DNA of 33,921 nucleotides from Bacteroidota bacterium (lineage in GTDB: Bacteria; Bacteroidota; Rhodothermia; Rhodothermales; JAHQVL01): the NCBI GenBank assembly GCA_039111535.1, contig JBCCIM010000049.1:1-33921 (forward strand), written 5' to 3'. The translations under genes were made by a program, and so were the position numbers. The stretch's first letter is position 1. Each line of letters begins with the position of its first letter. This document shows, in pieces, positions 6,748 through 22,992 of the stretch. The notes under the pieces were generated by a model. The model ran no database searches. It worked only from the letters and a program-made list of their open reading frames with translations, and was not told where the DNA came from.

Positions 6748-6962
6748 GCAGTTCAGGTTGGGTTGATGTGTTAGTTGGCGGCAAGCCCGTGTTAAAGTAA
6801 AGCTACCGCAATGCGACAACAGCAGCAACAGGCAGGCGCGACAATTACACCTTAATTTATAATAACTCGCGCTATTGTAGTGATTGGTTAATTAATCGTT
6901 GGGTAGGCCGATACCTTTCACGTAAGTCATGTCCTGGTCAACCCTTTTTATTGTTGTTTAAG

Positions 6963-8504
6963 ATGCGTTGTGTATCCTTAGTGTTAGCGCTATGCTGCCT
7001 CTTCTCCAGTGTCAGTGATCTTGTTGCGCAACTGGCACCGGGTGGTGTGGGGACGGGATTACAATTGTGGCTGAGAGCACAAGATTATCAGGTACAGACG
7101 CCGCCGGCAATATGGCAGCCACATGCCGGCGAATTGAATGCACCCATGCAGGAGAATCCCATGTGGATGCCGCTGCCCGGCGAGGCCGGCCGGCTGATCA
7201 ATGGTAATCCGGTGGTTGCCTTTGATGGGGTGGATGATCATTTGCTTTTTCTTACCAATAGTTTTGATGCGTTGGTTGGTAATTTTGAAGCTTTCATTGT
7301 ATACCATGTACCTGCGGCCGGCGGCGCGCTATTGGGTGGGCAAGATGGCGCTGATGTGCGGTTTTCGCTGGGCGCGGAGGGCCAGTTAATTACCGGGCGC
7401 GATACCCTTAGCCTTGTTGCTGATACAAGCACCCCGACCTTGTTACACGTACACCATTTTGGAACCCATTTGGCCGGCCGGATCAACGGCGCGGCATGGG
7501 ACAGTGTCGCTGCATCTACATGGGATGCGATTACGGGCCCAGTTGCAATTGGACAGCAAGGCTTTTCAGGATTGTTACCACTGGAAGGAGGGATTGGCGA
7601 AGTAATCCTTTATAACCGACGCCTCGACGCCTTCGAAGCAGATCAGGTACAAACGTATCTGGCCGTCAAATACGGACTGACTATGGCGCGTAGCTACTAC
7701 GCATCAGATAGTGCGCAGGTGTGGAGTCAGTTTGGTCATCCGGAAAATGCATTTAATGTAGCCGGCATTGGTAGGGATGATGCCGCAGGTTTGCTGCAAA
7801 CTGCCTCTCGGTCTGTGTTGCCGGCAGCAATTGTAAGCATGCGGGCAACCGGAGCACTTCCCGATCTTGCCTATCTAATCTGGGGAAGTTCTGATAGTAC
7901 GCTGAACGAACGGCCAGCCGTGATAAATGGCGAGCCGGTTAGTGTGTTGCGCCGGCAGTGGCATATCCACAAAAGAAAAGAACCCGGTCCGATTGAAGTG
8001 ACGTTTGACTTGCGAGATGCAATCGTCAGCGGCGCTGTGTCGGCTGATTATTGGCTTGTGCTTGACCAGGACGAAGATCCTGCCAACGGCATACGGAGTG
8101 CGTATCCAGCAGCAGTTGTAGATTCCGATAGCATTGTTTTTTCAGGTCTTCACTTTGAAGATGATGACTTCATGAGCTTAATCACGCACAACCCGGGACG
8201 TAACATCATCAATGTAGCCTTGGCCACGGAAGCGCAGCCCCGGGAAGTGCAGTTGAATAGTGCATATCCCAATCCCTTTGTTTCACAAACCCGTATCCAG
8301 TACACCCTTCCTCGACCAAATCATACGCGAGTAAGGCTTATCGATTTGCTGGGGCGAACCGTTCGGGTGATGCAAGATAGTTGGCAGCCGGCTGGTATCT
8401 ATACCTTATCCATCAACAGAGGCCAATTACCTGCGGGCGTTTACTATGTGCAACTAAAAGCAGGCCCTACCCAGATAGTGCGACAAGTTACCATTTTGCG
8501 ATAA
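6963..8504 (+). CDS. Secreted LamG-like protein with T9SS type A sorting domain
   Basis: Starting at ATG 6963 the protein has 513 residues. An in-frame TTG at 6951 would add four. A signal peptide covers about residues 1-23 (CVSLVLALCCLFSSVSDLVAQ region). The following 220 residues read like a concanavalin/LamG-type jelly roll (GLQLWLRAQDY, VVAFDGVDDHLLF, EVILYNRRLDAFEADQVQTYLAVKYGL), a layout common in Bacteroidota surface proteins. A middle beta-rich region follows. The last about 90 residues form a T9SS type A sorting domain: LNSAYPNPFVSQTRIQYTL, then VRLIDLLGRTVR and LPAGVYYVQL. It should be exported by Sec, moved across the outer membrane by the type IX system and anchored or released. 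Glycan binding is plausible but unproven. Confidence 0.9.
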   Translation: MRCVSLVLALCCLFSSVSDLVAQLAPGGVGTGLQLWLRAQDYQVQTPPAIWQPHAGELNAPMQENPMWMPLPGEAGRLINGNPVVAFDGVDDHLLFLTNSFDALVGNFEAFIVYHVPAAGGALLGGQDGADVRFSLGAEGQLITGRDTLSLVADTSTPTLLHVHHFGTHLAGRINGAAWDSVAASTWDAITGPVAIGQQGFSGLLPLEGGIGEVILYNRRLDAFEADQVQTYLAVKYGLTMARSYYASDSAQVWSQFGHPENAFNVAGIGRDDAAGLLQTASRSVLPAAIVSMRATGALPDLAYLIWGSSDSTLNERPAVINGEPVSVLRRQWHIHKRKEPGPIEVTFDLRDAIVSGAVSADYWLVLDQDEDPANGIRSAYPAAVVDSDSIVFSGLHFEDDDFMSLITHNPGRNIINVALATEAQPREVQLNSAYPNPFVSQTRIQYTLPRPNHTRVRLIDLLGRTVRVMQDSWQPAGIYTLSINRGQLPAGVYYVQLKAGPTQIVRQVTILR

Positions 8505-10318: not shown

Positions 10319-11851
10319 ATGATGTACACCCCGATTTCCCACCTAAACGGACGACTGCTTGCAGCCCTTGTGCTTGCATTTGTCTTTCTAATTCCCCCCA
10401 CAGTTGTCGACGTAAGCGCGCAAAGCGGCACGTTCTTCAACCAGCGTGATGATACCTATCCGTTGTTGGGCCTGCGTCGTGCAAAAGAAGCGTTTGATAC
10501 ACAGAAAGTGGAGTATGAGCGTCAGAAAGGGTTGCATGATAAACAGTTGATCTCGGAAGCAGCGCTGGAACAGGCGTTCCGAAATTACTCCGAAGCCGAA
10601 GTGAATTTTCAGCAGTCGCTGCTGGCGGTGATTTTTGAGCAGCAGTATATCGTTGTCTCCCGTGCGGTTAAATACCAGAAAGACAACCGCAAAAAGGGAG
10701 TTCGGCTCACCCTTGAAAATGCATCCAAAGGAAGCGGCGAATACGAGAAGCTGATTGGTATCGATGATTCTTTGTTTACGTTGCTGAAGCCGGATGTGGT
10801 TAATAACATTTATATTTCATTGCTCAACGATGATAACGCCATCATCAGCCAGCCGTATGAAAGAAAAATAGACCAGTTGCTTTACGGCAAGCCAAAAACG
10901 GTCAATTTTGAATTGTTGCAAGAATTGGACGCCGTTACGGTGAGTCTGATTTACGGCAATGGCTCACAGCAGAGCCGCAAAATCTATCTACAGAAAGACG
11001 ACTCTGAAAATATTGCGTCGATTAAGCCTGAGCAGTTTTCTCAGGAAGTGGAGTTGAGTGGCAATACGGATTACCGGATGTCGCTCGAGCTGTTCAGCAG
11101 TGATGCAAACACGTTCAAGCTCGAAGCTGTTAACCTGCCTTCTGAGATCAACCGCTATTTTGTTGATCCGGCTACAGACAACCGGTTGAGCCAATTCCAG
11201 TTTACAGAAGGCGTGAATACGCGGGAAGCAGCTTTGCGTATTTTCTTGCCTGAGCGTCCAACAGATAACGTCAAAATTGACGAAGGCCTGACCTTTTTCG
11301 CAATTTCGATTCCCAGAGAGCGAATTGAGGAAATTGGCGACGTAAGCCGGCGCCAGATGACGGAGGAAGAGATTCAGGCCCTCAACGTAGGATATGCCAA
11401 GCTTGAACTGGTGCCGCGTGGCATCGGTGAGATCCTTGTGCGGGCGCCCCTGCTTTCGTTTACCATCAAACCTGATGAAGAGGTGGTGGTAAACCTGGAA
11501 GTTGTCAACGAAGGGACACGTAGCCTGAATAATGTGCGCGTTGAAGCAGATCCGCCGCTGAACTGGACGGATACCATCAGCCCAGAAGTTATTCAGTCGC
11601 TCGACATTAATGAGGAGCAGCAGATACAGCTCCGTTTCAAGCCGGCGCCCAATGTTGCGCCCGGTCGCTATGAGGTGCGTGTACAAACGACCTCGCTTTC
11701 AGACGATTTGCCGATTCGCGGAGAGGACAAAACAATTTCGATTCAGATAGAAGCTGAAGCAAATGTGTTTGGCACCCTCATCGTGGTACTGTTGATTATT
11801 GGGCTTGTACTGGCCATTATCATCTTCGGTATCCGACTCTCCCGCAGGTAA
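10319..11851 (+). CDS. Membrane protein with adaptor-like coiled coil and NEW3 domain
   Basis: The 510-residue protein has a signal peptide (residues 1-35, ending VSAQ) and a C-terminal membrane segment (about residues 482-504, VFGTLIVVLLIIGLVLAIIIFGI) followed by a short basic tail, so nearly all of it is extracytoplasmic. Residues 45-120 form an alpha-helical stretch (EYERQKGLHDKQLISEAALE) that resembles the helical hairpin of MacA/HlyD-type periplasmic adaptors. The middle is beta-rich and unassigned. Residues about 380-470 resemble a NEW3/CARDB-like Ig-fold domain (FTIKPDEEVVVNLEVVNEG, LNWTDT, APGRYEVRVQT). It starts the cassette, 28 bp before the ABC ATPase, so a role as periplasmic subunit of that exporter is likely by context. 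The exact function is unknown. Confidence 0.8.
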   Translation: MMYTPISHLNGRLLAALVLAFVFLIPPTVVDVSAQSGTFFNQRDDTYPLLGLRRAKEAFDTQKVEYERQKGLHDKQLISEAALEQAFRNYSEAEVNFQQSLLAVIFEQQYIVVSRAVKYQKDNRKKGVRLTLENASKGSGEYEKLIGIDDSLFTLLKPDVVNNIYISLLNDDNAIISQPYERKIDQLLYGKPKTVNFELLQELDAVTVSLIYGNGSQQSRKIYLQKDDSENIASIKPEQFSQEVELSGNTDYRMSLELFSSDANTFKLEAVNLPSEINRYFVDPATDNRLSQFQFTEGVNTREAALRIFLPERPTDNVKIDEGLTFFAISIPRERIEEIGDVSRRQMTEEEIQALNVGYAKLELVPRGIGEILVRAPLLSFTIKPDEEVVVNLEVVNEGTRSLNNVRVEADPPLNWTDTISPEVIQSLDINEEQQIQLRFKPAPNVAPGRYEVRVQTTSLSDDLPIRGEDKTISIQIEAEANVFGTLIVVLLIIGLVLAIIIFGIRLSRR

Positions 11852-11879
11852 TAAAAAACGTAGTAAACAGAGATAGACC

Positions 11880-12638
11880 ATGGAAACATCAACGCAAGCC
11901 AACGGCCATGCCATGTTGGAAGCCGACCAGCTATCCAAACGGTATGAAGACGGCCATCTGGCGCTGGATAGCCTTAACCTGACTGTAAACGCCGGCGAGG
12001 TATATGCCATGCTCGGTGGTAACGGCGCTGGCAAAACCACGGCGATCAACCTGTTTCTCAATTTTATTGAGCCGACTTCAGGAGAAGCGCGGGTGGATGG
12101 CATTGTTACCCATAAAGAACCCCTGCTTGCCAAGCAGAAAATTGCCTACGTCTCGGAAAATGTAATGCTTTACCCCAACTTTACGGCATTGCAAAATCTG
12201 GACTTTTTTGTCAAGCTGGGCGGTAAAACGAACTACACCAAGGACGATTATCGACGTGTGCTTTTGCGGGTAGGCCTCCAGGAGGAAGCCCATAACAGGC
12301 GGCTCAAGGGATTTTCAAAAGGGATGCGCCAGAAATGCGGTATTGCCATCGCTATTCTGAAAGATGCCCGGGCCATTTTGCTGGACGAGCCTACAAGTGG
12401 TCTGGATCCGAAAGCCGCTTTTGAGTTTACCAAACTCATTCTTTCCCTCCGTGAAGAAGGAAAAGCGATTCTTATGTCTACGCACGACATTTTTCGGGCT
12501 AAAGACATCGCCGACATTGTGGGCATCATGAACCTGGGCAAGCTGGTGATGCAGCGGACGAAAGAGGAAATTGCCGGCGAAGATCTCGAAAAACTGTACG
12601 TCGAATACATGGCCGGCTATATGGACCAGGCCGCGTAA
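11880..12638 (+). CDS. ABC transporter ATP-binding protein (ABC-2 exporter type)
   Basis: The 252-residue protein is a complete ABC ATPase. Walker A is GGNGAGKT (residues 46-53), the signature is FSKGMRQK (145-152, a common ABC-2 variant of LSGGQ), Walker B is AILLDEP (165-171), and the switch His is H202 in STHD. The Q-loop position reads VSENVMLYPN, with Glu instead of Gln, as in a number of ABC-2 exporters. It would energise the two permeases encoded next, in the cytoplasm. It is 28 bp after the NEW3 protein and 45 bp before the first permease. The substrate cannot be deduced; relatives drive drug, lipid, polysaccharide or maturation-factor export. Confidence 0.95.
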   Translation: METSTQANGHAMLEADQLSKRYEDGHLALDSLNLTVNAGEVYAMLGGNGAGKTTAINLFLNFIEPTSGEARVDGIVTHKEPLLAKQKIAYVSENVMLYPNFTALQNLDFFVKLGGKTNYTKDDYRRVLLRVGLQEEAHNRRLKGFSKGMRQKCGIAIAILKDARAILLDEPTSGLDPKAAFEFTKLILSLREEGKAILMSTHDIFRAKDIADIVGIMNLGKLVMQRTKEEIAGEDLEKLYVEYMAGYMDQAA

Positions 12639-12654
12639 ATCCCTACGGATTTAC
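12635..12654 (+). other. Intercistronic hairpin overlapping the ATPase stop codon
   Basis: GTAAATCC (12635-12642) pairs perfectly with GGATTTAC (12647-12654) around the loop CTAC. The ATPase stop codon TAA (12636-12638) lies inside the left arm and TTT follows the right arm. The stem is short and A/T-rich and the T-run weak, so partial attenuation or mRNA processing between ATPase and permeases is more plausible than full termination. Confidence 0.5.
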
Positions 12655-12683
12655 TTTCAAAAAAACGCAGCACAACAAACATC

Positions 12684-14096
12684 ATGTTAAAACTTCTTGT
12701 CGAAAAAGAACTGCGCGACATAGTCAGTTCGACAAAGTTCACCATCACCTTTGCGGTATGTGCCGTGCTTATCCTGCTTGCTTTTTATGTAGGTGCACGC
12801 AACTACCAGGTAAGCATGAACGAGTATGAGGCAGCGCAAGCTGAGAACCTCAAGCAGATGCAGGAGCTTACCAGTTGGAACGACATCGAACACCGGATTT
12901 TCCTGAAGCCACAGCCATTGGCAGCGCTGGTGTCTGGTGTGTCGAATGACATTGGGCGAAACCTTGAGGTGGAAACCCGTGGTGAATTGCGCACCGAAAA
13001 CAGCAGATTCAGCGAAGATCCGCTCTTTGCCGTTTTCCGATTCCTCGACCTGGAGTTCATATTTACAGTGGTGTTGTCCCTGTTTGCAATTTTGTTCGGG
13101 TATGATGCTGTAAACGGAGAGAAAGAGCGTGGCACGTTGCGGCTCTCTTTTTCAAACTCCGTTCCGCGAGACAAATACATTTTGGGCAAAATTATCGGAT
13201 CGTTCCTGGCGCTGGTTGTACCGTTGTTGGTTGCAATATTGCTCGGTTTCCTGTTGTTACCGCTGTTTGGGGTGCCGATGACGGGCGATCTCTGGATGCG
13301 ACTTGGCCTGATTGTGCTGTCTGGCCTGTTGTATTTCAGCGTCTTCCTCACGCTTTCCGTGTTTATCTCTGCGATGACAGAGCATTCATCCAGCTCATTC
13401 CTGATGTTGCTTGTAGCCTGGATTTTTGCCGTGCTTATTATCCCGAGAACAGCTGTGTTGTTGTCTGGCCGCGCGGTTGATGTGCCATCGATGGACCAGA
13501 TCAACTTCGAGAAATCTGCTTTTGAAGACCAGCTTTGGCAGGAAGACCGGAAGAAGATGGACGAATTCTGGCGTTCCAATCCGTCGAACCCGTCAGAATC
13601 GCGCGAGCAGCGGATGATGCAGTTCCGTACGTTTATGACCGAACTGGCAGACGCCCGGGATGAAGAAGAACGCAAATTTGCAGAGCAATTGAACGAGGAC
13701 AGGAGGAACCGGGAAAATGTACAGCAACGGGTAGCACTCAATATTGCACGGATTTCGCCGGCAGCCTCTTTCTCGTTGGCATCCGCCGACCTGGCGGGCA
13801 CATCGCTGGAACTGAAACGCCGCTTTCAGGAAACCGCAGATGACTACCAGGTAAATTATGCAGAGTTTATAAATGAGAAAACAGGCGGCCTGGGCGGCGG
13901 CTGGTGGTCTCGTGGCGGGGGAGAAACCCAGAGTGAAGCCATCGACCCGTATGAGTTGCCGGCGTACACCTTTGAAGAGCCGCCGGCTTCAGAACTTGTG
14001 TCGGGGGCACTTCCCGATATCGGGATCCTTGTCATGTTTAACCTGCTCTTTTTTGTTGGCGCATTTGTGGCCTTCCTCAAATACGACGTGCGGTAG
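12684..14096 (+). CDS. ABC-2 type permease, first of two paralogues
   Basis: The 470-residue protein has six predicted membrane segments, near residues 19-37, 121-140, 171-195, 205-229, 236-258 and 444-464. Two large extracytoplasmic loops, about 38-120 and 259-443, separate them. The loop design and the NGEKERGTLRLSFSNSVPR stretch after the second span are typical of ABC-2 permeases of the NosY/DUF3526-like kind. The second loop is highly charged and helical and carries a Gly/Trp-rich patch (GGLGGGWWSRGGG) near residue 405. It lies between the ATPase and a related permease 58 bp downstream, so the two probably form a heterodimeric channel. Confidence 0.9.
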   Translation: MLKLLVEKELRDIVSSTKFTITFAVCAVLILLAFYVGARNYQVSMNEYEAAQAENLKQMQELTSWNDIEHRIFLKPQPLAALVSGVSNDIGRNLEVETRGELRTENSRFSEDPLFAVFRFLDLEFIFTVVLSLFAILFGYDAVNGEKERGTLRLSFSNSVPRDKYILGKIIGSFLALVVPLLVAILLGFLLLPLFGVPMTGDLWMRLGLIVLSGLLYFSVFLTLSVFISAMTEHSSSSFLMLLVAWIFAVLIIPRTAVLLSGRAVDVPSMDQINFEKSAFEDQLWQEDRKKMDEFWRSNPSNPSESREQRMMQFRTFMTELADARDEEERKFAEQLNEDRRNRENVQQRVALNIARISPAASFSLASADLAGTSLELKRRFQETADDYQVNYAEFINEKTGGLGGGWWSRGGGETQSEAIDPYELPAYTFEEPPASELVSGALPDIGILVMFNLLFFVGAFVAFLKYDVR

Positions 14097-14154
14097 CGGT
14101 ATCCTCCTTATTCATCTGGGTAGCTGCCGGCTACGCGTTTAAAGTTCCAAGACC

Positions 14155-15603
14155 ATGTTTAGCATTCTATTTGAAAAAGAACTCAAGTCGATTTTTCTGA
14201 GCCCCAAGTTTTTTGCAACATTCGGGGTTTGCTCTCTACTCATCCTGCTGAGCGTTTTTGTGGGTATCCAGGAATACAACAACGAGCAAGAGCAATATGA
14301 AACTGCGCTGCGGCTCGCCGAACAGCAAATTATGCAGGAAGATTCCTGGTGGGGCATTGACAATGTTGTGTTCCGCCAGCCGCAGCCTATGCAGATTTTT
14401 GTATCTGGTGTCAACAACGATATCGGACGAAGTGCAGAAATTAACACCTGGGTTGAGCCCAAATTGGAGCGGAGCAACTACGCAGATGACACCCTGTTTG
14501 CCGTATTCCGGTTTATTGATCTGACCTTCATCGTGCAGGTTGTGCTGTCGTTGTTTGCGATCCTGTTTACTTACAATAGCATCAATGGTGAACGTGAATC
14601 GGGCACCCTCAAGCTGGCGCTTTCCAATGCTGTGCCGCGTGCGCAGTATGTGCTTGCCAAGTTTGCCGGCTCCTGGATCGGGCTAACCATTCCGCTAATG
14701 ATACCCATATTGCTCGGGGTGCTCCTGGTCATGGTGCTTGGCATACCGATGGATTCTGGCGATTGGGCGCGCCTAGGTACGTTGGTTGGATCCTCTGTCT
14801 TATACTTTACTTTCTTCATCGCCTTTGGCCTTTTTGTGTCTTCCATTACCAAAAGGTCTTCGGTCTCCTTTTTGATTTTATTGGTAGCCTGGGTTGCACT
14901 GGTGCTCATCGTGCCGCGTGCTGCAACAATGGCCGCCGGCCAGATTGTACCTGTTACCAGTGTAGCAGAAATTGAAAGCCAGAAAGACCGTTTTCGTACA
15001 GACCGCTGGAATGCCTACCGCGTCATAAGGCGGGATATGCGGGAAGAACGCGAAGCAGCTATGTCTGGCATGACGCGTGAGGAACGTGATCAGTACCAGC
15101 AGGCGAATCAACAATCCTGGCAGACCGAAGAACGCACGGCACGTGATACACTCGAAGACGAGATCAACGAGTTCTCGCGCAAAGTTGATGAAGAGCTGCG
15201 CAACCAGAAAACAACGCAGGAGCGGATGGCCTTTACCCTGTCCCGGTTCTCGCCAGCCTCAGCCTACAAGCTGACCGCCATGCAAATGGCAAATACGGGT
15301 ACGGAGTTGAAAAGCGAGTACGAGGATGCCATGAAAGCGTACCGCACAAGTTTTTCGCAGTTTGTGGAAGCCAAGCGGGAAGAAGAGCGCAAAAAGAATG
15401 CTGGCCAAGGTGGATTTGGGCGAAACAGAAACCAGGAACAGGAACCCCTGGATTTGGCTGAATTACCCCGATTTGAAGCCCCTGCTCAAGAATATGCTGA
15501 AGCTATTGCACCAAGCATCATCGATTTCGGACTGTTGAGCCTGTTTTCGATTGCAGCTTTTGGTGGCGCATTCGTTTCTTTCATCCGATATGATGTTCGA
15601 TAA
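14155..15603 (+). CDS. ABC-2 type permease, second of two paralogues
   Basis: The 482-residue product closely parallels the preceding permease. It has an N-terminal span (about residues 19-37), FRFIDLTFIVQVVLSLFAIL for the second, and the block NGERESGTLKLALSNAVPR matching NGEKERGTLRLSFSNSVPR. Both end with a membrane segment and a FxxYDVR tail (FIRYDVR here, FLKYDVR there). The second large loop is again helical and charged, with MTREERDQYQQANQQ and a Gly/Arg patch near residue 420. The similarity points to tandem duplication followed by divergence, giving a heterodimeric ABC-2 channel with the upstream ATPase. No terminator is obvious before the TonB receptor gene 118 bp downstream, so read-through is possible. 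Confidence 0.9.
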   Translation: MFSILFEKELKSIFLSPKFFATFGVCSLLILLSVFVGIQEYNNEQEQYETALRLAEQQIMQEDSWWGIDNVVFRQPQPMQIFVSGVNNDIGRSAEINTWVEPKLERSNYADDTLFAVFRFIDLTFIVQVVLSLFAILFTYNSINGERESGTLKLALSNAVPRAQYVLAKFAGSWIGLTIPLMIPILLGVLLVMVLGIPMDSGDWARLGTLVGSSVLYFTFFIAFGLFVSSITKRSSVSFLILLVAWVALVLIVPRAATMAAGQIVPVTSVAEIESQKDRFRTDRWNAYRVIRRDMREEREAAMSGMTREERDQYQQANQQSWQTEERTARDTLEDEINEFSRKVDEELRNQKTTQERMAFTLSRFSPASAYKLTAMQMANTGTELKSEYEDAMKAYRTSFSQFVEAKREEERKKNAGQGGFGRNRNQEQEPLDLAELPRFEAPAQEYAEAIAPSIIDFGLLSLFSIAAFGGAFVSFIRYDVR

Positions 15604-15729
15604 GGTAGCCACCTGATTAGTCCACCAAGTAGATTGCGCGTGTTTTGCGTTATCCTCCAAACAGAATGTAAGTAGCTGCCTATAGCCCGGCGAGATAGAT
15701 GACCGGGATTTAGGTATGTTGTGGTTGAG

Positions 15730-17982
15730 ATGTTTATGAAAGAACTGAAAGGAGTCTGCACGTTTGTGTTGCTGTTTCTTTGTTGCGGCATTACACAGGC
15801 ATGGGGGCAAACGGCTTCTGTCCGCGGTATCGTTACTGCCGCAAGCGATGGATTGCCGCTACAGGGCGTTAACGTGGTTTTGCGCCACGATAATGGAACG
15901 TTCTATGGTGGGGTGACGGATGGTGATGGTGTGTATGCAATTACGCGGGTCACGCCTGGTGTGTATGCCATGCAAGTCTCATTTATTGGCTTTCAAACGA
16001 TCAGTTTGGAAGTTATTATGGCCGCTGAGGATACGCAGATTCTCAATTTTGAACTTGAGGAAGGAGCAGCGGAACTGGATGAGGTACTGATAGAAACAGA
16101 GCGTACAACAGGAGCAACCCGTGTGACTGCCGGCCTGCAGTCAGTAAAAGCAGAGGATCTTGAATTGGTGCCTGCACCAGACATCACAGCTGACCTCGCG
16201 AATTACCTCTCAACCTTGCCTGGTGTGATCTCAACAGGAGACCGGGGCGGCCAGTTTTTTATTCGAGGGGGTGAACCTGCGCATAACGTAGCCCTGCTTG
16301 ATGGCATGTACGTTTACCAGCCCTTTCACATCCTGGGTTTCTATTCTGCGTTTTCCGCTGACGTCCTTAACCAGGCTGATATCCATGCCGGCGGTTACGG
16401 CGCAGACTACTCCGGACGCGTGTCTGCCATCATGGACATCAAAACACGCAATGGCAATAAAAAAGAATTCGAAAGATCGGTTTCTATTGCCCCATTTGTG
16501 AATGCTGTGCGGTTGGAAGGGCCCCTCATTAAAAATCGTATCTCATTCCTTGGCTCGCTGCGGCAGTCGGTGATAGACAAAATTGCATCGCAATATGTTG
16601 GGCAGGAACTGCCGTATAAGTTTGGCGACTTTTTTGGCAAATTGCACGTCGATATCAATGCCAATAACCAGTTCTCCTTTACTGCATTGCGGACCTACGA
16701 CAGGGGCGCACTCGCAAACCAGGACCAGGTAAGCCGGGACGAAGTCCGATGGAACAACACGGTGATGGGTGGTCGATACCTGGTGTTGCCTAAGAATTCT
16801 CCGGTACGTGGTGAAATCCTCTTTTCTGTATCGCGCCTGGATTCTGAGTTGGGGCCGCGAAGCGCGCCAACACGCGTCTCCAAAATTGATAACTTCAATG
16901 CAGCGATCAATATCACCAACTACGCCGGCCTTTCTGAATTCAAATACGGCGGGTACCTCCGCACCGCCGAAGTATCATCGCAGTTGGGTGGCCTCTATCA
17001 AAACTTCAGTCAGTCTGAAGACCGACTGCCCAAGGTCGGCCTATACTTTGAGCCCGACATTTATATGGGCAAGGGGCTTCGTATTCGCCCCGGTCTGACC
17101 TACATGTTCTTTGATTCGTTCAATATTCTGGAGCCCCGCTTCAGGTTTGTCCTGGATCTTGGCAAAGGGCAGCTGAGTGGTGCAACGGGTTTGTACCACC
17201 AGGAAGTTGTCGGACTCAATGACCGGCGCGATGCTACCAACGTATTTACAGCATGGGTAGGGCCGCCATTAGACGACCTGACCAAGGCTGAGCATTACAT
17301 CCTCGGATACCAGTACACGGTTAACGAAAGCCTGGAGTTTTCAGTAGAGGGTTACTACAAAAACTTGCGCAACCTGTACATCTCCGAATGGACCGCATTC
17401 CCGCGCCTTACCACCAGTCTTCAGAAAGCTTCCGGGAAGGTCCAGGGACTCGATTTACGCGTTGAATTCCGGGCAGATAATTTTTACAGCTATGTGACCT
17501 ATGGGATTTCTTCTGTAGAGTACAAGGCACGGCAGGAGTCGCTGGAGTTGTGGTTTGGCAGCCCGGAAATTACGTTTCGTCCGCCCCACGATCGCCGGCA
17601 CCAGGTCAATGCACTCATGAACTGGAAAGTAAGCGACTTTAACATCAACATGCGCTGGAATTTTGGTTCAGGGTTGCCTTATAACCAGGTGCGCGGTTTT
17701 GACCAGTTCCTGTTGCTCGATGGCAACGTTGACGTGAGCGAGGAGCCTGGCGATTTGCGGGTCATTTATGATCGACCTTACGGCGGGGTGCTGCCAACGT
17801 ACCACCGACTGGATTTTTCAGTGGACCGACAGTTTCCTTTTGAAGGAGGCTTCTTCGCGATCCAGGCTGGTATTGTGAATGTGTATGATCGGGCGAATAT
17901 CTTCTCCCTCGACCTGTTTACACTGGAACGCACCAACCAGCTGCCTTTTATCCCCACCCTTGGTCTGAAAATTGAATTTTAA
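15730..17982 (+). CDS. TonB-dependent outer-membrane receptor with carboxypeptidase-like regulatory domain
   Basis: About 750 residues. The frame opens with GTG at 15721, but ATG 15730 or 15736 puts MKELK directly before the hydrophobic signal (TFVLLFLCCGITQAWGQ) and is preferred. Residues 28-110 form a CarboxypepD_reg-like Ig domain (SVRGIVTAASDGLPLQGVNV, YAITRVTPGVYAMQVSFIGF). The plug follows at about 130-235 (LANYLSTLPGVISTGDRGG, FFIRGGEPAHNVALLDGMYV), and then a 22-strand-type barrel region to the C-terminal Phe (TLGLKIEF). It would import a ligand across the outer membrane using TonB energy. The DUF4249-like lipoprotein begins 5 bp after its stop, a known Bacteroidota pairing. At about 750 residues it is shorter than SusC-type receptors. 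Confidence 0.92.
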   Translation: MFMKELKGVCTFVLLFLCCGITQAWGQTASVRGIVTAASDGLPLQGVNVVLRHDNGTFYGGVTDGDGVYAITRVTPGVYAMQVSFIGFQTISLEVIMAAEDTQILNFELEEGAAELDEVLIETERTTGATRVTAGLQSVKAEDLELVPAPDITADLANYLSTLPGVISTGDRGGQFFIRGGEPAHNVALLDGMYVYQPFHILGFYSAFSADVLNQADIHAGGYGADYSGRVSAIMDIKTRNGNKKEFERSVSIAPFVNAVRLEGPLIKNRISFLGSLRQSVIDKIASQYVGQELPYKFGDFFGKLHVDINANNQFSFTALRTYDRGALANQDQVSRDEVRWNNTVMGGRYLVLPKNSPVRGEILFSVSRLDSELGPRSAPTRVSKIDNFNAAINITNYAGLSEFKYGGYLRTAEVSSQLGGLYQNFSQSEDRLPKVGLYFEPDIYMGKGLRIRPGLTYMFFDSFNILEPRFRFVLDLGKGQLSGATGLYHQEVVGLNDRRDATNVFTAWVGPPLDDLTKAEHYILGYQYTVNESLEFSVEGYYKNLRNLYISEWTAFPRLTTSLQKASGKVQGLDLRVEFRADNFYSYVTYGISSVEYKARQESLELWFGSPEITFRPPHDRRHQVNALMNWKVSDFNINMRWNFGSGLPYNQVRGFDQFLLLDGNVDVSEEPGDLRVIYDRPYGGVLPTYHRLDFSVDRQFPFEGGFFAIQAGIVNVYDRANIFSLDLFTLERTNQLPFIPTLGLKIEF

Positions 17983-17987
17983 ACGAT

Positions 17988-18968
17988 ATGCTGCGTTTTA
18001 AAGCAATAATGAAGGTCAGGCATCTGGTTGTAGCCCTCCTGTTTGCCGGCTTGTTCGCTGGATGCGAAGAGGATCCCAATCCTTTGATTGGTGAAGACCA
18101 GCCGTTTACTGTGTATGGTTTTTTTAATCCAAAGGCCAACCGGCAACTTGTTCGGGTCATTCCTGTTGCCAACGTTATCGATCAGGTTGGTGTAGGCGCT
18201 GATCAGGCTACCGTCCGATCAATTGATGTTGCGTCGGGTGACGTACGGGTCTGGAAAGATTCCCTGGTTACTTTTTCTGATGAAAGTACCGGTATTGTTT
18301 TCTTTTCCGACTTTACGCCTGAGCATGAAGCAGCGTATCGCCTCGAAGTGATTCGCAACGATGGTGCAACCTCCAGTGTAGAGGTCACCGTGCCACGCGA
18401 CATCACGATACGCCGCGAGCCGGGTACAAATCCGCTTATCCCTGAATTCATTCTTGAAGGAGAGTTGCCTAATTTTGTGCAGGTTGCAGTAAAATACCGC
18501 ACTGCTGCATTACAGCCGCAGAAGCCCGTGGTGCTTGAGCCCGTCCAGTTTCCTGTAAACGTGTCGTACAAAGGTCTGGAAGAACGTGCCGGGGATGATT
18601 GGAGGTACCGGATCGACTATCGCGAAGACCTTGCGCAGATCAGGGAAGCATTTAGTAATGCCTGTTTGACTACAGAGTACATTGCCGTACGATCTATTCA
18701 GCTTGAGTTTTTTGTGGGTGACAATGCTTGGGTGCCACCAGGTGGTGAGTTTGACCCGGAATTGCTTGTGCAGCCGCAATTGTTTTCAAATATAGAGAAT
18801 GGTTTCGGGTACTTCGGCGCCGGCTACGTGGTTGACTTTAACGTATTACCCACAACCCCTATACTGCAAACCGTAGGTTTTATCTTTGATCCACCTTGTA
18901 CAGACATGACGCCCCTTACAGATCCTTCCTGTCAGCTGTTTGAAGGGTGTTTTGACGGTGTGATGTAG
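17988..18968 (+). CDS. DUF4249-like surface lipoprotein
   Basis: The 326-residue protein has a lipoprotein signal with the lipobox-like LFAGC (Cys26) and an acidic EED directly after the cysteine. That resembles the surface-export signal of Bacteroidota lipoproteins. The Phe at -3 is slightly unusual. The body is beta-rich, beginning FTVYGFFNPKANRQLVRVIPV, and later has NIENGFGYFGAGY, close to the conserved turn of DUF4249 proteins. DUF4249 genes are regularly paired with TonB-dependent receptors, and this one starts 5 bp after such a gene, so it is likely a co-receptor or ligand-handling partner. A second ATG at 18009 (MKVRHL) is an alternative start. It ends immediately next to the convergent sigma-factor gene. 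Confidence 0.82.
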   Translation: MLRFKAIMKVRHLVVALLFAGLFAGCEEDPNPLIGEDQPFTVYGFFNPKANRQLVRVIPVANVIDQVGVGADQATVRSIDVASGDVRVWKDSLVTFSDESTGIVFFSDFTPEHEAAYRLEVIRNDGATSSVEVTVPRDITIRREPGTNPLIPEFILEGELPNFVQVAVKYRTAALQPQKPVVLEPVQFPVNVSYKGLEERAGDDWRYRIDYREDLAQIREAFSNACLTTEYIAVRSIQLEFFVGDNAWVPPGGEFDPELLVQPQLFSNIENGFGYFGAGYVVDFNVLPTTPILQTVGFIFDPPCTDMTPLTDPSCQLFEGCFDGVM

Positions 18969-19538
18969 TTATTCGGCCCCACCTTCCTCTTTGTATCCCT
19001 GTATCGCTCTGAACAGGAAAGCTTTGGCTTTAAACCAGTCGCGGTCTATCGTGCGTTTGGTTACCTGTAGAACGCGTGCCGTTTCCTCAATGGAGAGGCC
19101 AGAGAAAAACCGCAACTCTACCACTTTGCCCAGGCGTTCGTTCAACGCAGAAAGTTGCGTGAGCGCTTTGTCGAGGTCAAGAATCTCAACAATTTCAGTG
19201 TCTACCATGATGGTGGCGCGCTCTGCCTGGCTAAGCGATGTTGGCTTGGAGTGCCCGCCGCGTCGTTCTGCATATTGCCGGCGCGCATAGTCGACGAGAA
19301 TCTGGCGCATAGCGCGCGCAGCGGTAGCAAAGAAATGCGCGTCGTCGTTCCAGCGGTCGGGATCGTGTTTGTTGAGCTTGATATAAGCTTCGTGTACGAG
19401 GGCTACAGTATCGATGGTTTGTCCGGTGCGGTACCGGCGCAGTTGTTTCTGTGCGATGACAACGAGTTCATCGTATACAATATGAAACGGCCGATCTGAA
19501 GGCGTTATTTTGTCCCGATTTGACTCTTCACTTTCCAT
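18969..19538 (-). CDS. ECF-like sigma factor (TIGR02999 / Sigma70_ECF type)
   Basis: The 189-residue protein matches the ECF-like group common in Acidobacteria, Planctomycetes and Rhodothermota. It has FHIVYDELVVIAQKQLRRYR at about residues 18-37, TVALVHEAYIKL (44-55), HFFATAARAMRQILVDYARR (68-87), and a region 4 helix-turn-helix LSIEETARVLQVTKRTIDRDW (148-168). Such factors are often encoded near Ser/Thr kinases or membrane regulators, but no anti-sigma factor or kinase is adjacent here. Its nearest neighbours are a divergent AraC-type regulator and the convergent lipoprotein gene, with which it shares no spacer at all. How its activity is controlled is therefore not shown by the local context. 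Confidence 0.92.
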   Translation of the reverse strand: MESEESNRDKITPSDRPFHIVYDELVVIAQKQLRRYRTGQTIDTVALVHEAYIKLNKHDPDRWNDDAHFFATAARAMRQILVDYARRQYAERRGGHSKPTSLSQAERATIMVDTEIVEILDLDKALTQLSALNERLGKVVELRFFSGLSIEETARVLQVTKRTIDRDWFKAKAFLFRAIQGYKEEGGAE

Positions 19539-19800
19539 TTGCTGCTGATCGTATCAGTTCATTTTGCGCCGGCGAAGCGAGGAAATAAAGATAGGCTTAA
19601 ATACGAAGGATGCAATACTTTTTTCCCAATTCGCAGGGTAATTTATGGATACATGCCTTTTTAAATGTCGCTTATTCGGTTGATGCTACGTTGTAGTAGA
19701 TGAGTTGCACAAACCCACTTCAGGCGGCCCCGGTAGGCATAGCAGGTGTTGCAAAGGTTGTCCAACTCTTCTGTGTCCTTTGCATACAACAAGAACGGTC

Positions 19801-20247
19801 ATGAATCTGGATTATTCTGGTCTATTTCACCGAATTAACAGAAGCGAGGCAGCAATTAACAAAACAATTGCTGCTTACAAAGCCGGCATTCCCTGCGCAA
19901 AAGAAGATTGGCCCTTTCTCGTGGCCCAGGTGTGGGACCACATCCGGCTACATTTCAATGATGCTAACACCAACGTGTCCCAGGTATTGGATGAACATAA
20001 CATACACACGAATACGTTTCAGGGCGTTTTTAGGAGTTATACGGGCTGGACTGTGAAAGGCATTATTGTCTATCACCGCATTGAAGTTGCCAAGCAATTG
20101 CTTGAGGGTGGCGAGTTGATGGTTAACGAAGTGGCCCGTGGTGTGGGTTATGCCGGCACGGTGTCTTTCAACCGGATGTTCAAAAAGGTTGTAGGGGAGA
20201 CGCCAACGGGATATAAAAAACTCAAGCAGGATATCTGGCTGAACTAG
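19801..20247 (+). CDS. Short AraC-type transcriptional regulator
   Basis: From ATG 19801 the product has 148 residues. The frame extends back to 19705, but the extra residues (Cys-rich, low quality) do not look native. Residues about 55-142 form an AraC/XylS DNA-binding domain with two helix-turn-helix units: VSQVLDEHNIHTNTFQGVFR and VNEVARGVGYAGTVSFNRMF, the latter followed by the family's ETPTGYKK. The N-terminal 50 residues are too short for the usual sugar-binding or sensor domain, so the protein may act as a stand-alone DNA-binding factor. It is divergent from the ECF-like sigma factor across about 260 bp and converges with the response-regulator gene, 9 bp away. Possible targets are its neighbours, but this is inference. 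Confidence 0.85.
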   Translation: MNLDYSGLFHRINRSEAAINKTIAAYKAGIPCAKEDWPFLVAQVWDHIRLHFNDANTNVSQVLDEHNIHTNTFQGVFRSYTGWTVKGIIVYHRIEVAKQLLEGGELMVNEVARGVGYAGTVSFNRMFKKVVGETPTGYKKLKQDIWLN

Positions 20248-20256
20248 CGCGGGTTA

Positions 20257-20949
20257 TTACCCAACAAACTTATAGCCCAACCCATGTACGGTGAGGATGT
20301 ATTGCGGCCGGCGTGCGTTGGGCTCCAGTTTTTGCCGCAGCCATGCAACGTGTACGTCAATGGTACGGGTAGAAGGCAAGGCATCGTAGCCCCAAACTTC
20401 ATTGAGCAGTTCATCCCGCGACAGCGTAGCGCCTTTATGCTCTGCAAAGTAGCGCAGCAGTTGAAACTCTTTTGCTGACAGTTCCAGCAAATTACCCTCA
20501 CGTTTCACTTCAGCTTTCCTGAAATCGATGTTAACATCGCCAAAACTGTACGAGTCTATCTGGTCCTGCTGAATATTTTGGGTTTGCGTACGGCGCAGCA
20601 ATGCCTCAATACGGGCCATGAGTTCTGGCATTTCGAAGGGTTTGGTCAGGTAGTCGTCTGCGCCCAACTTGAGCCCGACAACCTTGTCTACAACCTGCCC
20701 TTTTGCTGTAAGCATCATGATGGGTGTCTGAATATCCTGCTTGCGCAATTCCTGACAAATATCCAATCCACTTTTCCCGGGCAGCATTACGTCGAGAATG
20801 TACAGGTCAAACGCTTCACCCGTTGCGCGTTGCATACCAGAATCACCTGTGGATTCCGTCACAACCTCGTACCCTTCGCTCTCCAGCCGATCCGTAAGGG
20901 TGAGGATCAGACCCGGTTCATCTTCTACGAGCAGGATGCGTTTGTTCAT
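20257..20949 (-). CDS. OmpR/PhoB-family response regulator
   Basis: The 230-residue protein has a receiver domain (residues 1-118). The acidic pair is E9/D10 in LLVEDEPG, the phosphoacceptor is D53 in YILDVMLPGKSG, the switch Thr lies in MMLTAKGQ, and the conserved Lys is in DDYLTKPFEMPEL. A winged helix-turn-helix DNA-binding domain follows (about 135-230): LLELSAKEFQLLRYFAEHKG, SRDELLNEVWGYD, and the family end RTIDVHVAWLRQKLE...VHGLGYKFVG. It starts 12 bp after the histidine kinase on the same strand, so the two form an operon and a cognate pair. The regulon is unknown. The 3' end faces the AraC-type gene 9 bp away. Confidence 0.95.
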   Translation of the reverse strand: MNKRILLVEDEPGLILTLTDRLESEGYEVVTESTGDSGMQRATGEAFDLYILDVMLPGKSGLDICQELRKQDIQTPIMMLTAKGQVVDKVVGLKLGADDYLTKPFEMPELMARIEALLRRTQTQNIQQDQIDSYSFGDVNIDFRKAEVKREGNLLELSAKEFQLLRYFAEHKGATLSRDELLNEVWGYDALPSTRTIDVHVAWLRQKLEPNARRPQYILTVHGLGYKFVG

Positions 20950-20961
20950 TTAATTATTGGT

Positions 20962-22992
20962 CTATTTCAAGGGGAGGTGTAGGGTGAACGTAGTGCCACC
21001 CGCAGGGCGCGACATGACAGATACGCGTCCATTGTGCGCTTCCATTGTTTTTTTGACGATACTCAACCCAATGCCGTTGCCTTTTATCTGAGCAGCGCGA
21101 ACTGCCGGCCCACGGAAGAAATCTTCAAAAATATGTGGCAGGTCATCCTGGGGGATGCCGATCCCTTTGTCTGAAACACTAACCTGGATTTCTGAGCCTT
21201 TGCCATTTTTATGGACTGCGGTGTAAACACCAAGCCAGCGGTTGCCATTACTGTATTTGATGGCATTGTGAATAAGGTTGCAGAGGGCCGCATGCAGGGA
21301 TCGTTTATCGCCTTCAACCGGAGGCAGGTGATCTGCAACCGACAGGTCTACCTCAAAGTTTTTGGTTTCTATAGACTCTTTACACGCATCAAGAGCATTG
21401 TGCACCAGGTCCGGTACGAGCATGGATTCGCGTTTGAAGGTTTTGTCGGGAGACAGCACGCCGGCCAGCTCCAGAATTTGCTCAACCATATCGGTTAAAC
21501 GTGTGGCTTCTTTGCGAATCAGATGCCCATATTTCTGCATGCGATCGGGTTCGCTTACCACGCCATCAGCAAGATTGTCTGCAGCAGATTTGATTACAGA
21601 AAGCGGGGTGCGTAATTCGTGGGACACCCCGGTGACAAAACCCATTTGCCGGTCTGCCAGCCATTGTGCTTTCCGGGTTGAGATGTAAATGACTACTATT
21701 GCAAACCCGAGAATCAGCAAAATACCAAAACTCAGCCCCAGGTTGCGCCAGCGGTTTGCTGCAACGGATGCTTCCAGTGAACCAGTTTTATGTCGCAACC
21801 GCAAAAGCCAGGCATTCGCGGGGCTGGGATTTATGGTGGTTCTGGATGCGGTTGATGTGGCTGGTGTGGAGGCTGAAGGTGTTGCGGATGCCGTTTGTGT
21901 AAGGTTGGTCAGTGCAACCAGCAAATCCTCTGCAGTCAGGTCGCCTTTGTAGTCGTCTTCCTGGGCCAGCCTGATGATGGCCTGCAGCGGGAAGTCTGTA
22001 TACAGCTCCGGTGATTCCACTACAAAGCTGTCCCGAATGGCCGGCTGCCAGGCCCTGCTTACCTGCCCGAAAAGCGAATCGGCCACCATTTGGTCGCGTT
22101 CGATTAGCGATGCATAGCCAAAGGCAAGGCGGGAAGCAGACGGGAATCTGTTCCACCGGAGTCTGCCAACACTTGCTTCGGCGTCAGGGGTGTCAAATTG
22201 TTCAAGCTGTAGTGTGGAGTCAGACTGGTATAGAATGTTGGGCGGATCGCTTGCACTGATAATCATCAGATCAACGTCATCTGCCACATTGAAAAACTCA
22301 TCCTGCAGCTCAGGGAAAAAGGTCTCAGCAAGAAACGCTTTGTTTAGTGTGAGGAGCGTGTGGCCGGCGCGGCCGCTACTGGTTGCATTCAGGTTGGCGA
22401 GTAGCTCAGGGGACGAAAGCTCATCATCGATCGAAACAGGAATGGGAATGGCCGGTGTTTCAGCCATCAGTTTGGCACTACGGTACGCAAACTCGTCATC
22501 GCTCAACGTATCTGGCGCTGATTGCGGGTTGTATGCTTCTATTTGGCGTTGATTACGTTCGATGAAGTAGGCTTTCCAGCCCGTCAGATGTGCCGGCCAG
22601 GGCTCCATTTCCAATTTGCCATCTGCCGGCTCAAAGCGGTACAGGCAAAGCTCCTGGTTGTCATCGTAATCAACCCAGTAAATTTGCTCAATCAGGTCAG
22701 GGCGGGCGACGCGGGAGGACCAATATTGATAGTTGAGGCTTAACTCTCGCGAAATTTGTTCGAGAGAACCAGTAAAGCTCACGCGGAATGCAAATTGCGC
22801 CGGCGACAATTCCTGGTTCACCGCTTCGCTGAACAGTTCAGCGCTTGTTTGCATGTTAGACCGTAGGCGCTCGACCTCGTTGTCGCTTAACTGGCCAATC
22901 CAGTGGTATTGCAGGAAAGCCAGGATAGGGAGCAATGCGATCAGGCCGATGATGACCAGAAGCATCAACTTGTTGCGGCGGATGTCTTGCAT
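20962..22992 (-). CDS. Membrane sensor histidine kinase
   Basis: The 676-residue protein has an N-terminal membrane span (about residues 9-27), a large extracytoplasmic domain of about 390 residues, and a second span (about 418-438). The cytoplasmic kinase core follows. H458 in VTGVSHELRTPLSVIKSAADN is the phosphorylation site. The HATPase domain shows LIHNAIKYSNGN (N box), VSDKGIGIPQDD (G1), FEDFFRGP and GNGIGLSIVKK (G2). No PAS or HAMP domain is evident. The sensor domain has a Ser/Thr/Ala-rich low-complexity linker near residues 366-390 just before the second span. It lies 12 bp upstream of the response regulator gene and should phosphorylate that protein. The signal is unknown, but the domain size suggests a periplasmic ligand or protein partner. 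Confidence 0.93.
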   Translation of the reverse strand: MQDIRRNKLMLLVIIGLIALLPILAFLQYHWIGQLSDNEVERLRSNMQTSAELFSEAVNQELSPAQFAFRVSFTGSLEQISRELSLNYQYWSSRVARPDLIEQIYWVDYDDNQELCLYRFEPADGKLEMEPWPAHLTGWKAYFIERNQRQIEAYNPQSAPDTLSDDEFAYRSAKLMAETPAIPIPVSIDDELSSPELLANLNATSSGRAGHTLLTLNKAFLAETFFPELQDEFFNVADDVDLMIISASDPPNILYQSDSTLQLEQFDTPDAEASVGRLRWNRFPSASRLAFGYASLIERDQMVADSLFGQVSRAWQPAIRDSFVVESPELYTDFPLQAIIRLAQEDDYKGDLTAEDLLVALTNLTQTASATPSASTPATSTASRTTINPSPANAWLLRLRHKTGSLEASVAANRWRNLGLSFGILLILGFAIVVIYISTRKAQWLADRQMGFVTGVSHELRTPLSVIKSAADNLADGVVSEPDRMQKYGHLIRKEATRLTDMVEQILELAGVLSPDKTFKRESMLVPDLVHNALDACKESIETKNFEVDLSVADHLPPVEGDKRSLHAALCNLIHNAIKYSNGNRWLGVYTAVHKNGKGSEIQVSVSDKGIGIPQDDLPHIFEDFFRGPAVRAAQIKGNGIGLSIVKKTMEAHNGRVSVMSRPAGGTTFTLHLPLK

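Follow-up and report, generated by a model that had tools for sequence, protein, structure and literature searches.

YbhG is the adaptor of the YbhFSR system. YbhFSR of Escherichia coli is an ATP-binding cassette (ABC) exporter composed of one ATPase and two ABC-2 permeases, according to an excerpt of PMC8277102, and known adaptors are described in an excerpt of PMC4446572 as anchored by an N-terminal helix or a lipid, with the helical hairpin inside a lipoyl domain. Here we analyse a 33,921-nucleotide stretch of DNA (the window; contig JBCCIM010000049.1 of assembly GCA_039111535.1) from the Rhodothermales lineage JAHQVL01. At positions 10319–15603 it carries a four-gene ABC-2 cassette, the first gene of which encodes a protein with a predicted helical hairpin and a NEW3 domain (the hairpin-NEW3 protein). 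The cassette resembles YbhG-YbhFSR in combining an adaptor candidate with one ATPase and two ABC-2 permeases, but the adaptor candidate has another architecture, the family has PDZ and two-component partners, and the multidrug role belongs to YbhFSR. We propose, with a probability of about 0.55, that the cassette is an ABC-2-driven trans-envelope exporter with a C-terminally anchored periplasmic adaptor on a stalk of immunoglobulin-like (Ig) domains. Literature on NEW3 domains with ABC transporters, on DUF3526 and on C-terminally anchored TolC adaptors yielded no description of the system.

The four open reading frames (ORFs) lie on the forward strand with intergenic gaps of 28–58 bp. They encode the hairpin-NEW3 protein (10319–11851; 510 amino acids), an ABC ATPase (11880–12638; 252 amino acids; ABC_tran PF00005, E 3.7e-28), and ABC-2 permeases A (12684–14096; 470 amino acids) and B (14155–15603; 482 amino acids). 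Both permeases carry the Pfam domains ABC2_membrane_2 (PF12679) and DUF3526 (PF12040), and 191 of 484 aligned columns are identical (39%). The ORFs and their domains confirm the cassette with duplicated, paralogous permeases described in the initial annotation. The ATPase and permease B also give partial matches to components of GldA-GldF-GldG (TIGR03522, 137.6 bits; TIGR03518, 39.2 bits), far under the curated cut-offs of 402.6 and 288.5 bits, and membership of that system was rejected.

The hairpin-NEW3 protein is 38–53% identical to its homologues in 17 relatives. NEW3 (PF10633) is its sole Pfam domain (E 1.2e-13, residues 384–457), and a comparison with sequences in the PDB gave no match at E 1. 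An AlphaFold2 model built on an 18-sequence family alignment (mean predicted local distance difference test score (pLDDT) 82.3) shows, in order, a signal-peptide helix, a hairpin, three beta domains and a C-terminal helix. The signal peptide, read by eye, occupies approximately residues 1–35 (10319–10423), with a hydrophobic helix at 7–24 in the model followed by VSAQ/S; no lipobox was seen in it by eye. The first beta domain (residues 111–237; 10649–11029) is Ig-like, its matches to Ig arrays being the least specific of the three, and the second (residues 241–367; 11039–11419) also finds its structural matches among Ig arrays. The third is the NEW3 Ig domain (residues 372–477; 11432–11749), which VIA-align superimposes on domains of Vpr (8jmw_A; Z 12.6, root mean square deviation (rmsd) 2.0 over 101 residues) and of a sialidase (Z 12.1, rmsd 1.9 over 99 residues). 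The NEW3 domain noted earlier is thus upheld by both profile and fold. The membrane helix at residues 483–509 (11765–11845), which is followed by a short basic tail, appears in both the model and the family alignment. It places the anchor at the C terminus, the reverse of the N-terminal anchoring given in the excerpt of PMC4446572, as had been claimed.

The hairpin occupies residues 48–107 (10460–10639), with helices at 48–74 and 80–107; its mean pLDDT is 83–92 per ten-residue block between residues 51 and 100, and 68 for residues 101–110. A MacA/HlyD-like hairpin had been predicted from the sequence, and its absence from a structure prediction would have counted against that proposal; the model contains it. 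Sequence models only hint at it: RND_mfp matches residues 52–99 alone, below threshold (E 0.0098; 14.9 bits, cut-off 94.9). A profile of the hairpin family (72 rows, Neff 3.5) was compared by hhalign with the HlyD_D23 adaptors of the same genome. Against all 12 adaptor loci together the match was 96.8% (E 2.1e-10, 51 columns) with the docking tips aligned. Taken singly, five of the 12 gave at least 87%, one gave 70% and six gave about 22% or less; one of the loci compared, L140, comes from the edge of a contig and its ORF is probably wrong. A reversed-profile control gave 0.1%, and 59 of 60 column-shuffle controls gave 0.5% or less, the other (99.5% over a 6-column gapped end) being an artefact. 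When other proteins were compared with five of the 12 adaptor loci, profiles of the ATPase, permease, kinase and regulator gave 1% or less, and that of the outer-membrane efflux protein (OEP) family gave 8.8% (E 0.004). Fold searches with the whole model return Ig arrays that mask the hairpin, and the lack of adaptors among those results is uninformative. The model and the controlled profile match together make a strong case that the predicted hairpin is homologous to those of membrane fusion protein (MFP) adaptors.

Like MacA, AcrA and HlyD, then, the protein combines a hairpin that matches the adaptor profile with a gene position beside a pump, and it also shares their docking tip. Residues 68–79 (10520–10555; RQKGLHDKQLIS) fit RxxxLxxxxxxS, the TolC-binding RLS motif according to the part of PMC3391258 consulted. 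Residue R68 is invariant in all 18 family members, that is, the window protein and its 17 relatives. The closest tip in the same genome, RQKALHDKQLIS, belongs to an adaptor on contig C54 whose gene adjoins two MacB-type permeases, and differs at one of 12 positions. In the wider family, 72 of 76 rows cover the tip. A midpoint-rooted FastTree tree of the protein splits clade I, which holds the window and typically has two permeases, from clade II, which has up to five permeases in view and no PDZ gene; the exact motif is kept by 42 of the 60 rows of clade I and by 4 of the 12 of clade II. Docking of the hairpin-NEW3 protein to a TolC-like channel appears likely.

At two loci, L045 and L046, NEW3-type proteins that share the C-terminal anchor but have no hairpin are encoded next to an ATPase 39–40% identical to that of the window and a single, shorter ABC-2 permease. 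NEW3-ABC cassettes can therefore work without a hairpin, and the window cassette resembles them in pairing ABC-2 genes with a NEW3 protein anchored at its C terminus. This would suit an ordinary accessory protein of such a transporter, in which the hairpin is a relic or coiled-coil spacer and the likeness to an MFP tip has no function. We consider that very improbable, given that the tip is kept through deep divergence over many phyla and that, of 65 exact occurrences of the motif in the family, 46 sit at the tip. The simplest history would be the addition of an MFP hairpin to a hairpin-less accessory protein like those at L045 and L046.

The association of the first gene with the ABC genes was examined in a phylum sample of 247 genomes. 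The hairpin-NEW3 protein was matched in 25, at full length in 18 (the genome of the window included) and by short matches only in seven. All 17 other full-length loci encode an ATPase (61–74% identical) and at least one permease, and 16 encode two, so the co-occurrence whose absence would have counted against the initial proposal was found throughout. Permease A was matched at E 1e-30 or better in 20 genomes, including all 18 with the full-length first protein; the matches in the remaining two were weak (1e-33 to 1e-34). A search of an 84,980-species collection gave 86 confirmed stretches, of which the best 80 were kept, yielding 77 loci. Their titles name Rhodothermales, Balneola, Calditrichia, KSB1, Ignavibacteriae, Zixiibacteriota, Krumholzibacteriota, Latescibacterota, Acidobacteriota, Gemmatimonadota and two gammaproteobacterial metagenome-assembled genomes (MAGs), among others. 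The proteins from two MAGs labelled Pseudohongiella and Gammaproteobacteria (L053, L054) are 58–59% identical to that of the window and nest in a Rhodothermales-rich subclade, which may reflect either lateral transfer or misbinned contigs. The first protein had no match in plasmids or phages, and its family profile had none in viral contigs. At five clade II loci (L106, L108, L109, L110 and L111), four or five permease genes surround one hairpin-NEW3 gene, with one cassette-type ATPase where seen.

Profiling for a co-occurring outer-membrane partner had been suggested, and such a partner was found in one branch. At four of the 77 loci, all of them among the 13 of clade II, the hairpin gene is closely preceded, on the same strand, by a TolC-family OEP gene (L112, E 1.1e-37; L116, 9.6e-32; L117, 1.8e-40; L122, 1.1e-28); clade I has no linked OEP gene. 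At L112 the OEP and hairpin ORFs overlap, and at L116 a 143-amino-acid ORF lies between them. The L122 protein is 21–24% identical to the other three, and a profile of the four found no further strong match across the loci (one at E 5e-4). By gene position, the linked OEP is the predicted outer-membrane partner of the hairpin-NEW3 protein in clade II. The genome of the window has OEP-family genes elsewhere (20 domain matches).

Two further partners, a periplasmic double-PDZ protein and a two-component system, were not part of the initial annotation, nor was the NosY-like fold of the permease described below. Genes at the 77 loci were labelled with profiles trained on loci that partly recur among them. 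Clade I counts set aside the 13 clade II loci, seven loci of the window's subclade and seven that had too little sequence upstream or whose first ORF was not intact. The usual clade I order is a response regulator and histidine kinase pair divergent from PDZ, hairpin-NEW3, ATPase, permease A and permease B genes. A PDZ gene lies directly upstream of the hairpin-NEW3 gene at 40 of the 50 usable loci, and Pfam finds two PDZ stretches in each of three tested cassette-linked proteins. A histidine kinase gene lies within 5 kb at 32 of the 43 clade I loci with at least 3.5 kb upstream, and is divergent in 32 of 32. No linked PDZ gene was found at the window cassette or at the seven other loci of its subclade. 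In the window the pair is displaced: the response regulator (20257–20949, reverse strand; PF00072/PF00486) is the best match in its genome (67%) to the cassette-linked regulator of L027, and the histidine kinase (20962–22992, reverse strand), which has a large N-terminal region before HisKA (residues 451–510), is likewise the best match in its genome to the L027 kinase.

Kinase sensing of transporter flux has a model in BceAB-BceRS. Here an ABC-2 pair that expels or flips membrane-active peptides, with the hairpin-NEW3 and PDZ proteins signalling flux to the histidine kinase, would account for the divergent kinase at 32 of 43 eligible clade I loci and for the peptide-maturation genes (radical-SAM/PqqD) close to three cassettes. 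The kinase, however, comes with a large N-terminal region of its own, and neither the rest of the window's subclade nor clade II has the pair in linkage; we regard a sensing and detoxification role as distinctly improbable. The radical-SAM genes lie near the cassettes of L107, L042 and L043, with PqqD in L107 and L043; L042 and L043 are outside the tree, and their sequences resemble the clade II group of L109. Downstream of a one-permease cassette, L107:6883–10717 encodes radical-SAM/B12, radical-SAM/SPASM/PqqD and PqqD proteins and a small peptide-like ORF, and by its gene content is a possible modified-peptide cluster. From the PDZ domains and the radical-SAM/PqqD neighbours of these three second-clade-like loci, we would guess that the cargo is peptide-like.

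Other permease genes were seen in relation to these partners. In the genome of the window, C7:52502–56297 (L131 8503–12298) encodes a PDZ protein with permease A-like and B-like proteins and has no ATPase or hairpin gene nearby; this pair may share the ATPase and hairpin gene of the window cassette. A third permease type is found at C100:21403–22887 (L164), with similar ones at L099:8522–9961 and L049:9184–9657 (a short ORF in L049). In L099 and L049 the gene lies directly upstream of the hairpin gene, the position of the PDZ gene in other relatives.

The nearest structure to the AlphaFold2 model of permease A (pLDDT 80.6, predicted template modelling score (pTM) 0.74) is NosY (7o12_E). Foldseek gives E 1.6e-4, and VIA-align superimposes 245 of 246 NosY residues with Z 25.9 and an rmsd of 2.7 Å. 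With its ABC ATPase and an ABC2_membrane_2 permease of the NosY fold, the cassette has the make-up of NosY-like ABC-2 exporters. Permease A has a 44-residue first helix (17–60) and a long helical excursion between its last two membrane helices (residues 270–400; 13491–13883), consisting of extra helices at 270–298, 307–355, 359–371 and 375–400. Read from ABC-2 topology, the excursion is probably extracytoplasmic, and the very large loops reported earlier correspond to these two elements of the model. NosFY of NosDFY shares the permease fold and a periplasmic partner encoded beside the ATPase and ABC-2 permease. In contrast to NosFY, the window has two diverged permeases with a long extracytoplasmic excursion, and the partner consists of a hairpin and Ig domains; neither Pfam nor the model shows a NosD-type beta-helix domain in it.

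NosDFY and FtsEX-EnvC are precedents for ATP-driven mechanical action, and the NosY-like fold leaves room for such a role here. The main rival explanation is accordingly a machine without an export conduit, in which ATP cycles move the periplasmic arm to remodel or activate a periplasmic or outer-membrane client and the PDZ protein is the client receptor. The close alignment of permease A with NosY, for which structures of NosDFY together with its client NosZ are among those solved, agrees with this; linked PDZ and two-component genes would suit envelope maintenance, and clade I has no linked outer-membrane gene. An RLS tip that is conserved and a hairpin homologous to those of adaptors would be unexpected without a TolC-like channel, however, as would the OEP genes beside the hairpin gene at four loci. 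We therefore judge a mechanical machine to be unlikely.

Several observations weigh against the proposed exporter. NosY works in a maturation machine and is not known as part of a conduit. Up to E 1, NEW3 is the only Pfam match of the first protein, with no HlyD or lipoyl match, and the remainder of the model is Ig-like; the lipoyl (barrel-sandwich) and beta-barrel domains, which serve ring-up and pump contact in known adaptors, are absent. No outer-membrane factor gene is linked in clade I, the window included. The tips at the four OEP-linked loci read KLS, NLS, NLS and ILT, so the arginine is missing at the loci with the most certain partner. The model has a pTM of 0.52, and the relative placement of its domains is too uncertain for the inter-domain geometry to be relied on. 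Some TolC-dependent adaptors have no RLS motif, according to the excerpt of PMC4446572, and the motif is thus neither required for docking nor proof of it. The protein also differs from MacA, AcrA and HlyD in that its hairpin is N-terminal rather than spliced into a lipoyl domain and is borne on an Ig-like stalk. With a signal peptide at the N terminus and its membrane helix (residues 483–509) at the C terminus, it has no N-terminal membrane helix or lipid anchor. Although it lacks two defining features of adaptors, the lipoyl and barrel domains and the N-terminal anchor, it may yet work like one.

In the exporter that we favour, permeases A and B would form a heterodimer on two ATPases. Several copies of the hairpin-NEW3 protein, with their C termini in the inner membrane, would stand beside the periplasmic helices of the permeases and hold out their hairpin tips towards a TolC-like trimer. 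Substrate taken from the periplasm or the inner membrane would then be driven into this channel by ATP cycles. A peptide-like substrate would be caught or presented by the PDZ protein, and envelope stress would switch the system on through the kinase.

The TonB receptor and DUF4249 genes that follow the cassette in the window do not appear to belong to it. Positions 15721–22992, between permease B and a pyruvate-kinase-like gene, encode a TonB receptor, a DUF4249 protein, an ECF sigma factor, an AraC-type regulator and the two-component pair. A link of the first two to the cassette was rejected, since tblastn found neither in 20 fetched loci at 1e-6. In L049 and L099, read by eye, the cassette is followed directly by genes for a pyruvate-kinase-like, a large repeat-like and an FtsH-like protein; as the block is absent between permease B and the pyruvate-kinase-like gene there, 15721–22992 looks inserted or rearranged. 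A paralogous two-component system on contig C23 was considered as a regulator of a nearby efflux operon, but unrelated genes lie between them (L167) and no claim is made. The same genome also carries two ATPase-permease-permease ABC-2 cassettes without a NEW3 gene (L166:700–4131 and L165:8762–12435), one of them directly after the apparent end of a TonB receptor. Upstream in the window, 6951–8504 encodes a secreted protein whose tail is a sorting signal for type IX secretion (PF18962). A role in anti-phage defence was rejected, PADLOC having returned generic ATPase matches only.

We give about even odds that the family constitutes a second class of TolC-docking adaptor, in which the Ig stalk of a NEW3-ABC-2 system, anchored at its C terminus, has received an MFP hairpin and stands in for the lipoyl and barrel ring. 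Such a class would be widespread in Bacteroidota, Calditrichota, KSB1, Zixibacteria, Ignavibacteria, Latescibacterota and beyond, with a PDZ protein and its own two-component control, and one branch would bring an outer-membrane channel of its own and as many as five permeases per ATPase. The system is common in phyla known mainly from metagenomes, and the linked sensor, the PDZ protein and cultured Balneola relatives make its inducer, cargo and partner testable. If the hairpin is indeed held on Ig domains from a C-terminal anchor, the docking tip would be a portable module and the rest of the adaptor replaceable, and this would be an unrecognised way of building pumps across both bacterial membranes.

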